Source of the DNA: a virus
Virus record (IMG/VR): IMGVR_UViG_3300041411_000036
Location: 1 to 22,371 of that record
DNA: 22,371 nucleotides
Direction: 5' to 3' (one strand)
How positions within the stretch are numbered: position 1 is the stretch's first letter; every line of letters begins with the position of its first letter. The position numbers were made by a program, and so were the translations under genes. The notes beneath the pieces were generated by a model. It made no database searches. It was not told the DNA's origin and saw only the letters and a program-made list of their open reading frames with translations. Positions 16,892 to 20,447 of this stretch are shown piece after piece.

Positions 16892-18034
16892 GTGAGCTAT
16901 CCAGCTACCAACATCATCCGGATTAATGCCCGGATCAGCCCGGCAGGCCTGGGCAATGCGAACTTTGCCAGCGCCATGCTGTTCGCCCCTGAAGACGAAC
17001 TGCCCGTCGGCTTTGCCGTGGACACGTATCGGACCTACTTCTCCCTGGTGGCGCTGTCGGAAGACTTTGCGGACACCACTGAAACCTACAAGGCGGCCCA
17101 GCGCTGGCTTGGCGGCACTCCGGCTACTCGCGAGCTGAAGGTGTGGAGCACTGCCGATGCGGACCTGACTCGAGCCGCCACCCTGAACAAAGCCCGTAAC
17201 ATGCTCTGGTGGTACTGGACCATGTGGACGGCGCCGATTCTGGCCGTCAAGGCTGATGTTCTGGCGATTGCGCAATGGTGTGAAGACAACACCAGCATGT
17301 TTATCGACAACCAGACGGGCGCATCGGCTACTGAGATTCGCGATCCTTCTGACACCGATGACATCGCCACTCAGTTGACCACGGCAGGCTTCCGCCACGT
17401 TTACACCGCCGCGCACGCGACTGACGCCTACTCAGGTTCGGCCCTGGCCAAGCACTTCGCCGCGGTGAACTACAGCGCGGATCGCTCGACCATTACCGGC
17501 GAGTTCAAGAAGTCGCCGGGCGTACCCGCTGAGTCGCTGGACGGAACGGCCTATACCGCGATGCAGAGCGCCGCGAAAAAGGCTGTGTTCTACACCGTCG
17601 TGGACAACCAGGGCTCGGTTGACTCCGGCCGCTGGTTGAACACTTTCACTCACAGCACCTACGGCGAGTTCATCGACGATGTTGTGAATCTCGATGCGTG
17701 CGTGAACTTCCTGACCACATCGCTCTACAACGCAGTGGCCAACCAGACCACAAAGCTTGCCCAGACCCCGGTCGGCCAGGCTGTGTTGATCGGCGCTGCT
17801 CGGGCGACCATGCAGCAGTTCGTCAACAACGGCTACCTGGGCCCGCGCAATTACATCGACCCGGACGACGGTCTCGAGAAGTACACCGCTGGCTTCGAGA
17901 TCCTGACCCAGCCGGAAGACATCCTTGACTTGTCGGAAGCTGATCGCAACGCCCGCAAGTCTGCCCCGCTGCGTATTCGCCTGTTCCGTGCCGGCGCCAT
18001 CCACATTGTCGATGTCGACCTCGACGTTTATTAA
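16892..18034 (+). CDS. Contractile tail sheath protein (DUF3383)
   Basis: 380 residues starting with GTG at 16892; GGAG at 16880-16883 is 8 bases ahead. The pattern IIRINARISPAGLGNANFASAMLFAP, the YKAAQRWLGGTPATRELKVWS region and the late NNGYLGPRNYIDPDDG and PLRIRLFRAGAIHIVDVDLDVY fit DUF3383 sheath proteins. The sheath surrounds the tail tube and contracts to push it through the envelope. It identifies the phage as a myovirus. The tube gene follows after 10 bases. The non-ATG start may tune its level. Confidence 0.9.
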   Translation: MSYPATNIIRINARISPAGLGNANFASAMLFAPEDELPVGFAVDTYRTYFSLVALSEDFADTTETYKAAQRWLGGTPATRELKVWSTADADLTRAATLNKARNMLWWYWTMWTAPILAVKADVLAIAQWCEDNTSMFIDNQTGASATEIRDPSDTDDIATQLTTAGFRHVYTAAHATDAYSGSALAKHFAAVNYSADRSTITGEFKKSPGVPAESLDGTAYTAMQSAAKKAVFYTVVDNQGSVDSGRWLNTFTHSTYGEFIDDVVNLDACVNFLTTSLYNAVANQTTKLAQTPVGQAVLIGAARATMQQFVNNGYLGPRNYIDPDDGLEKYTAGFEILTQPEDILDLSEADRNARKSAPLRIRLFRAGAIHIVDVDLDVY

Positions 18035-18044
18035 TAGGTGACCC

Positions 18045-18452
18045 ATGAGCCTGAGTAATTTTTCGACAGACCTGTGCGTCGTCACCATCAACGGCCGGCA
18101 GATCCAAGACTGGGGCGACACTGCAACCCCATACACGGACGCCCCAATCGATGCCAAGAGCCAGCTCCGTCGCGGCCAGGGCGGTAACGCAATCCGCCTC
18201 GATCGCATCAACCCGGGCCGGGAGGTGAATATCTTCCTGAACCCAGGTTCGGCGGACGCGGCTTATGTCCAGGGCCTGCTCAACTCGAACGCCAACGTCA
18301 CGCTGACCTACACCCAGATCGGTACGCTGGAAACGGCACTGGGCTCGGAAGGCGTGATCGTGAACGACGGCCAGCGCGGGCGCGCCGGTTCGACCATCAC
18401 GGACGACCAGTTCACGATGCAGTTCAACATCTGGGAAGCGACAAGGGGCTGA
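18045..18452 (+). CDS. Tail tube protein (DUF3277)
   Basis: 135 residues from ATG 18045 with AGGTGA just ahead. The order LCVVTINGRQIQDWGDTA, RGQGGNAIRLDRINPGREVNIFLNPGS, YVQGLLNSN and TDDQFTMQFNIWEATRG follows DUF3277, the tube protein that accompanies DUF3383 sheaths. It forms the inner stacked-ring tube through which DNA passes. It precedes the chaperone gene by three bases. Confidence 0.9.
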   Translation: MSLSNFSTDLCVVTINGRQIQDWGDTATPYTDAPIDAKSQLRRGQGGNAIRLDRINPGREVNIFLNPGSADAAYVQGLLNSNANVTLTYTQIGTLETALGSEGVIVNDGQRGRAGSTITDDQFTMQFNIWEATRG

Positions 18453-18455
18453 TAG

Positions 18456-18842
18456 ATGAGCGTAAAAGCATTCACCATCGGCGGCGTGCAGTACAACGCC
18501 GCCATGGCCAGCGCCGTCGATCAAGACCGTCTCATGTCCCTGCTGTCTGCCGCCGTGCTGGAGCGATTCGCCACGGCGGCGCAGGCAAGCCTGGAGGTAG
18601 ATGAAAAGGTCCTCTCCATGATGTTCATGTCGATGCGCCAGGACGTTAAGTCTCAAGTGGCGCAGATGATCATGGCCAAGGTAGTGGTCAACGGCACGGA
18701 TCGCCCGGTCACTGTCGCTGACTTCGGTGGGCGGATGGTGCAATACAACCAGCTCCTGGCTGAGTTGCTGCGCTGGAATCTCTCCGATTTTTTCGACTGG
18801 CTGCCCGGCGGCGAAAGAAGCCCAAGGCAGCCGGTCGTGTAA
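18456..18842 (+). CDS. Tail assembly chaperone, short form (gpG-like)
   Basis: 128 residues, ending at TAA 18840-18842. The sequence is mainly helical: MSVKAFTIGGVQYNAAMAS, LMSLLSAAVLERFATAA, KVLSMMFMSMRQDV, YNQLLAELLRWNLSDFF. Its location between the tube and the tape measure is that of lambda G-type chaperones, which hold the tape measure while the tube is built around it. After residue 113 the frame continues with DWLPGGERSPRQPVV, which is short and poor in structure, as expected of a termination tail after a slip site. The UUUUUUC site lies at 18788-18794. Confidence 0.85.
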   Translation: MSVKAFTIGGVQYNAAMASAVDQDRLMSLLSAAVLERFATAAQASLEVDEKVLSMMFMSMRQDVKSQVAQMIMAKVVVNGTDRPVTVADFGGRMVQYNQLLAELLRWNLSDFFDWLPGGERSPRQPVV

Positions 18843-19021
18843 AACGCAGCTCAGTGAATTGGTTTCTGATGCGCCCCTGTGTCGGGATCGTGGGCGTTTG
18901 CCCGCCACTCTGCACCTGGGCGCAACTGGTCGATGGATCCCTCTCCATAGCGGACGTCGAGCGCTTCAACCAAGCCATGGATGAACTGTGGGATCAATAC
19001 GAGGCTGCGAAGAATGGCTAG
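18456..19021 (+). CDS. Tail assembly chaperone, -1 frameshift form (gpGT-like)
   Basis: The predicted product joins 18456-18794 to 18794-19021, giving 188 residues. The slip site T TTT TTC at 18788-18794 is in the right phase (codons GAT TTT TTC) for a -1 shift, and the -1 frame is open from 18764 to TAG 19019-19021. The added 75 residues start RLAARRRKKPKAAGRVKRSS and end SIADVERFNQAMDELWDQYEAAKNG. NWFLMRPCV...LSIADVERFNQAMDE is the usual shape of phage chaperone C-terminal parts. The stop overlaps the tape-measure start. In lambda the GT form binds the tape measure and G-only copies outnumber it. The first frame alone would leave about 170 bases unexplained. Confidence 0.8.
18788..18794 (+). 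promoter_or_regulatory. Programmed -1 frameshift slippery heptamer
   Basis: TTTTTTC, read as T TTT TTC in the frame of the chaperone gene, matches the X XXY YYZ rule exactly. It lies 46 bases before the 0-frame stop, with the -1 frame open on both sides. A GC-rich stretch (CTGGCTGCCCGGCGGCG) follows and may fold and assist the shift. Confidence 0.82.
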
Positions 19022-20447
19022 CAAAGTCCTGAAGTCGTTCCTGATCGGCATCGGCTATGACACCAAAGCCCTGGAAGCGGGCGACAAGAAGATCAACGCC
19101 AGTCTCAATGGCATCAAATCCGGCGCCCTCGGTATCTCGGCGGCCCTGATTGGAGCCTTTGGCACTGCCGCCAGCTCAATTGTTGGCGTGGCTGGCCGCG
19201 TAGATAAGCTGGCGATGTCCACGCAGAACCTGCGCACCTCCCAGGCGGCCGTGTACAACTACGGCAACGCCATCAAGCTGATGGGCGGTGATGCTGCTGA
19301 CGCCATCGACACGCTGCGGCGATTCGAAGAGATCCAGAACAACCTGCGTCTCAAGGGTGATGCCGGGCCGATCAATGACCTGGCCATGGCCGGCCTGGAT
19401 GTGAGTTCGCTCTACGAGACGCAGACCGGCGAAGAGTTCATGCGCGCGCTGTCTGCCATGATCCCGAACCTGGATGAAGGGCAGCGATCTGTTGTTCAAG
19501 ACTCTCTCGGGCTGTCGGATGCCGTTTTCCGGTCCTTGGCCGGCGGTGTCGAGCAGCTTGACGCCACGATGAAGAAAGCCGGCGCACTCACCGGCAGCGT
19601 GGATCAGCTCACCGACGAGAGCCGCAAGCTGGCCGAGAACGCTTCAGAGTTCGGCCTGATCATCGAGGGCATCAAAAACGAACTGGCTGAAGAGTTCCTG
19701 CCCAGCCTGATCGGTGCCGGGAGCGCGCTCAACAACTTCCTCAAGGAATACCGCGACGAGATCGGCGGGGCCATTGGGTACGCCGCCGACAATGCGGGGG
19801 CTACCGCAGTGCTTGGCGGATCGGCTACTGCGGCTGTTGCTGGGGCAGCAGCGGCAAAACTGGGCCTCAGCACCGTCGGCGGCGCAGTAAGCAAGGCTGG
19901 AACGGCAGGTGTTGCGGTAACCGGTAGCGCCATCGGTGCGAACTTGCTCAACAGGACGCTCGACGAGAATGTGCCTGGGTACGGCGCAGCCTCTCGCAGC
20001 TTTGACGAGTTGCTCAAAAGCGTGACCGGCCTTGACCGGATCAAAGGGCCACTGGAACTGATTTCCGGCGGGTTGAGCGACACTGGAAGCGCTCCTCAGA
20101 TTGTCTCGGAAAGCCCAACGGAGACCTCTCCGCCGCCAGTCTCGCAGCAAGGCGAGACGTACACCGGCCAGGTCATTCGCTCCCAGGAGGACATTGAGTA
20201 CCTCAATCACAGGGACAGGTCAGCCGCTGACAGCATGCCCCCTCCCGAGCCGAATCGGGATGAGCAGCGCCAAGCAGATGCTGAAGCTATAGCTGGAGCG
20301 CTGGGCCGCACACCGGTCAAGGTTGAGAGCCACCTCAACGTGAACATGCAACTCGACGGGCAGGCCCTTGAAAGCAAGATCATTCAGGTCAACGAGCGGC
20401 AGAACTACGAAACCCTGGGCGACCTGAAGACCACAACGGAGCGATAG
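19014..20447 (+). CDS. Tape measure protein
   Basis: 477 residues from ATG 19014; an upstream in-frame ATG at 18981 lies inside the chaperone -1 frame and is not used. The opening KVLKSFLIGIGYDTKALEAGDKKINASLNGIKS is typical of tape measures in this tail type. Helical stretches follow (about 75-215), then a hydrophobic Ala/Gly-rich segment at about 255-320 (ATAVLGGSATAAVAGAAAAK...), and a Pro/acidic linker. The closing region (KVESHLNVNMQLDGQALESKII) contains a beta-like strand set common at tape-measure ends. The protein sets tail length; by the usual rule of about 0.15 nm per residue this is a short tail of roughly 70 nm. No peptidase or lytic domain is seen. Confidence 0.88.
   Translation: MASKVLKSFLIGIGYDTKALEAGDKKINASLNGIKSGALGISAALIGAFGTAASSIVGVAGRVDKLAMSTQNLRTSQAAVYNYGNAIKLMGGDAADAIDTLRRFEEIQNNLRLKGDAGPINDLAMAGLDVSSLYETQTGEEFMRALSAMIPNLDEGQRSVVQDSLGLSDAVFRSLAGGVEQLDATMKKAGALTGSVDQLTDESRKLAENASEFGLIIEGIKNELAEEFLPSLIGAGSALNNFLKEYRDEIGGAIGYAADNAGATAVLGGSATAAVAGAAAAKLGLSTVGGAVSKAGTAGVAVTGSAIGANLLNRTLDENVPGYGAASRSFDELLKSVTGLDRIKGPLELISGGLSDTGSAPQIVSESPTETSPPPVSQQGETYTGQVIRSQEDIEYLNHRDRSAADSMPPPEPNRDEQRQADAEAIAGALGRTPVKVESHLNVNMQLDGQALESKIIQVNERQNYETLGDLKTTTER

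Follow-up and report, generated by a model that had tools for sequence, protein, structure and literature searches.

Comparative evidence for a programmed −1 frameshift at T TTT TTC in the tail assembly chaperone gene of DUF3383-sheath dwarf myoviruses

The window, by which is meant the whole stretch of DNA analysed, is a 22,371-base virus record with a contractile-tail run consisting of sheath, putative tube, tail assembly chaperone (TAC), tape measure, Dit-like and baseplate genes. The features at and around the TAC gene are as follows:

16892–18034, plus strand: tail sheath (DUF3383); PF11863 E 1.7e-25, phrog_205 (tail sheath) E 1.9e-77
18045–18452, plus strand: putative tail tube protein, 5′ of the TAC gene; phrog_280 E 2.2e-20, homologues annotated as putative tail tube protein
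18456–18842, plus strand: TAC, 0-frame product of 128 aa; phrog_9141 E 4.8e-58, phrog_1613 (tail assembly chaperone) E 3.3e-6
18788–18794, plus strand: slip heptamer T TTT TTC, in phase and kept in close relatives
18794–19021, plus strand: −1 frame extension, 75 aa plus stop; phrog_4364 E 2e-21, supported by pN/pS and by the lack of stops
18799–18832, plus strand: possible stimulatory hairpin (GGCUGCC/GGCAGCC stem), predicted
19014–20447, plus strand: tape measure protein; phrog_12278 E 2.3e-160 and several tape-measure families

The X base of the heptamer falls on codon position 3, with 0-frame codons 111–113 reading GAT TTT TTC (Asp111-Phe112-Phe113), and this phase is the one that a tandem −1 slip requires. 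A TGA at 18761–18763 precedes the −1 frame, which is open from 18764 and closes with a TAG at 19019–19021 that overlaps the tape-measure ATG at 19014, 171 nt separating the TAC stop from the tape-measure start. The original prediction had already placed the TAC gene, the heptamer, the −1 frame and the overlap of its stop with the tape-measure gene, and every one of these coordinates is correct. The predicted slip product joins TAC residues 1–113 to the 75-aa extension, giving 188 aa, and after the junction its sequence runs RLAARRRKK...NWFLMRPCV...SIADVERFNQAMDELWDQY. The extension's close relatives sit in Pseudomonas genomes. Within the extension, RPCVGIVGVCPPLCTW (18878–18913) contains three nearly invariant cysteines in a C-x6-C-x3-C arrangement, candidates for a metal site or a disulfide. 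In addition, the TAC stop of the window (18840–18842) comes five codons before that of most close relatives (128 versus 133 aa); with the −1 frame open over the same bases, this early stop fits a dispensable 0-frame tail.

The first product had been proposed to be a tail chaperone, and this identity is upheld by its place between tube and tape measure together with matches to PF21822 (Phage_TAC_15) in 17 of 24 homologues (E up to 0.1, best 2.9e-17); the window's own TAC scores 21.3 bits against a curated cut-off of 22. A structure predicted from the window and the loci of the related-loci search has a mean pLDDT of 78.6, and the 0-frame model is confident only to about residue 118, near the slip point at 113. 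The predicted model resembles the protein 5ir0, which comes from a PICI-like element of V. cholerae (Z 8.2, rmsd 3.7, 95 residues aligned), and is weakly similar to 2ob9, the tail assembly chaperone of HK97 (Z 4.3, rmsd 4.0, 77 aligned). With such modest scores, these modelled fold matches simply back the family assignment made by sequence. A PDB profile search using the TAC alignment returned nothing meaningful.

As a bare string, TTTTTTC is not rare, with 2 occurrences in the window against 1.67 expected; the heptamer is non-random in its phase, its place and its conservation. GAT TTT TTC is found in 39 of 39 distinct close relatives, which still form 9 clusters at 15% p-distance. At three other conserved Phe positions in the same 39 relatives, TTC is used in 111 of 117 codons (~95%), and at other conserved Asp codons both GAT and GAC are in use. 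Given Asp-Phe-Phe, the probability of GAT TTT TTC is 0.029 per lineage under the window's codon usage. A further set of 80 distinct loci was fetched by alignment of the extension alone and was thus unselected for the heptamer. An in-phase T6 heptamer is present in 72 of these 80 (T TTT TTC in 58, T TTT TTT in 14), and an open 0-frame of at least 100 aa lies upstream in 71 of the 72; among the other eight, one is on a contig that ends short of the site, and the remaining seven retain T TTT but differ in the A-site codon.

Similarly, 19 of 22 distant phage loci, with 16–55% TAC identity, have an in-phase T TTT TT[C/T]. The same arrangement occurs in MSW-3, PEi21, vB_KsaM-C1, CASP1, FZ14, KpTRp1, KpV79, AAM22, PhiPLPE and several Vibrio phages, and Jedunavirus, Yokohamavirus, Vibrio and Pantoea phages are among the named relatives with an in-phase T6 site. 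In the distant phages, the extension is always in the −1 frame, and in several of them the opening of this frame coincides with the heptamer. In place of the T6 heptamer, Vibrio 1.016 and 1.038 have other candidate heptamers, and Psychrobacter pOW20-A has none; not every relative therefore has the exact heptamer.

The extension was also assessed as a protein, with pN/pS computed on 29 representatives. Between the heptamer and the conserved VNW of the extension, the −1 frame has a pN/pS of 0.55 and contains no stop in any of the representatives, compared with 1.30 for the 0-frame tail encoded by this stretch; past the TAC stop, the −1 value falls to 0.15. These ratios show purifying selection on the −1 frame, downstream of the heptamer as well as beyond the TAC stop. 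Alignment of homologues had been suggested along with the original prediction, which would have been weakened by a missing in-phase slip site or by stops scattered through the −1 frame; both the 39 of 39 and 72 of 80 counts for the heptamer and the stop-free, constrained −1 frame speak in its favour. PF21829 (DUF6889) matches the extension weakly, scoring 16.8 bits where the curated cut-off is 23.9 (E 0.0056, 24 of 40 positions).

The extension could alternatively be a separate small DUF6889-like gene, translated from its own start (GTG 18854 or ATG 18869) by re-initiation after the TAC stop, with the T6 tract coincidental. The window does have a GTG at 18854, 12 nt past the TAC stop, and some annotators have entered the extension as its own CDS. 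However, the valine of VNW is encoded by GTA in 59 of 80 loci and by GTG in just 2, and this GTA codon is overlapped by the TAA stop of the TAC gene in the majority of close relatives, so the GTG of the window is, by this codon count, the exception and not the rule among relatives. A start at the later ATG would lose the conserved VNW, and some Vibrio phages (VDWYFARCYVG) do not have that ATG; in the window itself, no Shine-Dalgarno-like sequence precedes either GTG 18854 or ATG 18869. Most relatives thus offer no usable start for the extension, which makes a separate gene unlikely. In addition, the −1 frame is constrained already between the heptamer and the TAC stop, and re-initiation leaves the synonymous invariance of the heptamer unexplained. 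On this evidence a separate gene was rejected as very improbable.

Transcriptional slippage is less probable still and was likewise rejected. Here RNA polymerase would slip on the T tract, and ordinary translation of an mRNA one base short or long would give the fusion, an explanation to which the homopolymeric site, with T7 or T8 runs in some relatives, lends itself. However, six T's are short for bacterial transcriptional slippage, the strict codon phase fits codon–anticodon slippage better, and in some relatives GAT TTT is retained while the next codon has become TCN. A functionless chance coincidence of heptamer and open −1 frame, in keeping with the near-expected frequency of the bare string, was rejected as scarcely credible in view of the invariant synonymous choice in 39 of 39 relatives, the purifying selection on the −1 frame and the recurrence in distant phages.

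Frameshifting at the heptamer fits nearly all relatives, since the heptamer is conserved, the −1 frame is selected and most relatives have no start at VNW. The TAC gene therefore very probably yields two proteins from one start via a −1 slip at T TTT TTC. The majority of ribosomes would decode T TTT TTC without slipping and terminate at 18842, releasing the 128-aa chaperone. In a minority, the tRNA-Phe molecules in the P and A sites would slip back by one base and re-pair on TTT TTT, after which the ribosomes would resume at CGA 18794 and terminate at 19021, giving the 188-aa TAC–extension fusion; both the slippage and its rate are inferred.

Seven relatives (L165, L167, L169, L185, L186, L191 and L193) keep the −1 extension and have T TTT followed by TCC, TCG, TCT or ACA, where full re-pairing is possible in the P-site half of the heptamer only. 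The clade is taken to make its fusion at an all-U site, and it is conceivable, if somewhat doubtful, that in those members that have the P-site half alone (T TTT TCN/ACA) slippage in the P site, with the A site re-pairing poorly, could be enough. These seven relatives with a weakened A-site codon constitute a natural experiment on slip-site requirements; if P-site slippage does suffice, they would form a natural series for gauging the contribution of the A-site codon.

Possible stimulators of slippage were sought on both sides of the site. In the window, a 7-bp hairpin is predicted 4 nt 3′ of the heptamer (z −2.4 over 60 nt). In 24 close relatives, 77% of cells are paired at this hairpin, part of the stem is kept and few double changes are seen. 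The local hairpin is absent in most distant relatives, and for the 24 close relatives the RNAalifold consensus was long-range and weak, contained one double change and revealed no family-wide conserved RNA structure. From these predictions, the downstream hairpin may help slippage in close relatives only and is not a feature of the family. A Shine-Dalgarno-like element at ~11-nt spacing upstream can promote −1 slippage, and in several Vibrio phages (L086, L087 and L095), GGAG lies about 11 nt upstream of a T7 site. In the window's group, the upstream element is GGA alone and comes from conserved Trp-Asn codons, and an upstream Shine-Dalgarno-like stimulator is a lead at most.

The arrangement shares with the lambda G/GT and P2 E/E+E′ type a pair of overlapping frames flanked by the tube and tape-measure genes, an in-phase X XXY YYZ site late in the first frame, and conservation of the slip site and the −1 frame in homologues. 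A further feature of the type is a fusion protein produced in a small, fixed proportion and needed for tail assembly. P2, like the window, has a contractile tail and the order sheath, tube, TAC, tape measure, with a T6 heptamer lying in phase close to where the TAC ORF ends (in P2, 28 nt short of the end of the E ORF) and an extension that overlaps the tape-measure start. The P2 slip site is T TTT TTG (PMC3091744, PMC3931495), its Z base being G where that of the window is C, and no downstream hairpin is reported for P2 (PMC3091744). The TAC and extension proteins of P2 belong to other families than those of the window. As cited in PMC3931495, the P2 frameshift product was established experimentally by Christie et al. 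2002, whereas the product of the window is predicted here from sequence comparison. UUUUUUC had been thought less usual than other heptamers at this locus, a remark that does not hold, as T6 is well precedented and P2-like phages use T TTT TTG.

In lambda G/GT, the TAC is similarly followed by a −1 extension overlapping the tape-measure gene, and the phase of the heptamer is as in the window; the parallel first drawn with lambda thus extends to gene order, slip phase and tape-measure overlap. Unlike the contractile-tail run of the window with its T TTT TTC, lambda is a siphovirus with the heptamer G GGA AAG, and its T part is ~2x the length of the 75-aa extension. The roles of lambda G and GT have been described (PMC5009743) and may be transferred to the two products of the window. 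By this analogy, the short form would coat the tape measure, and the rare fusion would recruit the tail tube protein and start its polymerisation.

Homologous TAC and extension are shared by a group of dwarf myoviruses comprising Jedunavirus, Yokohamavirus MSW-3 and PEi21, Iodobacter PhiPLPE and CP-T1-kind Vibrio phages, in which an in-phase T TTT TTC or T TTT TTT is present and the extension lies in the −1 frame. A frameshift goes unmentioned in the published comparison of the CP-T1 group (PMC3391216), and a literature search of partial coverage found no earlier report of this slip site for the clade. None of the annotated dwarf-myovirus records inspected has a joined TAC–extension CDS; they either omit the extension or enter it as an ORF of its own, hypothetical in most cases. 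The type of mechanism is already known from lambda and P2, and it is apparently unannotated in the small contractile-tailed phages of this group. By comparison of loci, the present analysis lends strong support to programmed −1 frameshifting in the TAC of DUF3383-sheath dwarf myoviruses. Among phage records, 320 match the TAC and 350 match the extension, and in many of these re-annotation could restore a missing tail assembly factor. In vB_KsaM-C1, the extension (L081 1911–2063; ON807605.1 43733–43885) is labelled 'tetracycline resistance leader peptide', which is evidently a misannotation.
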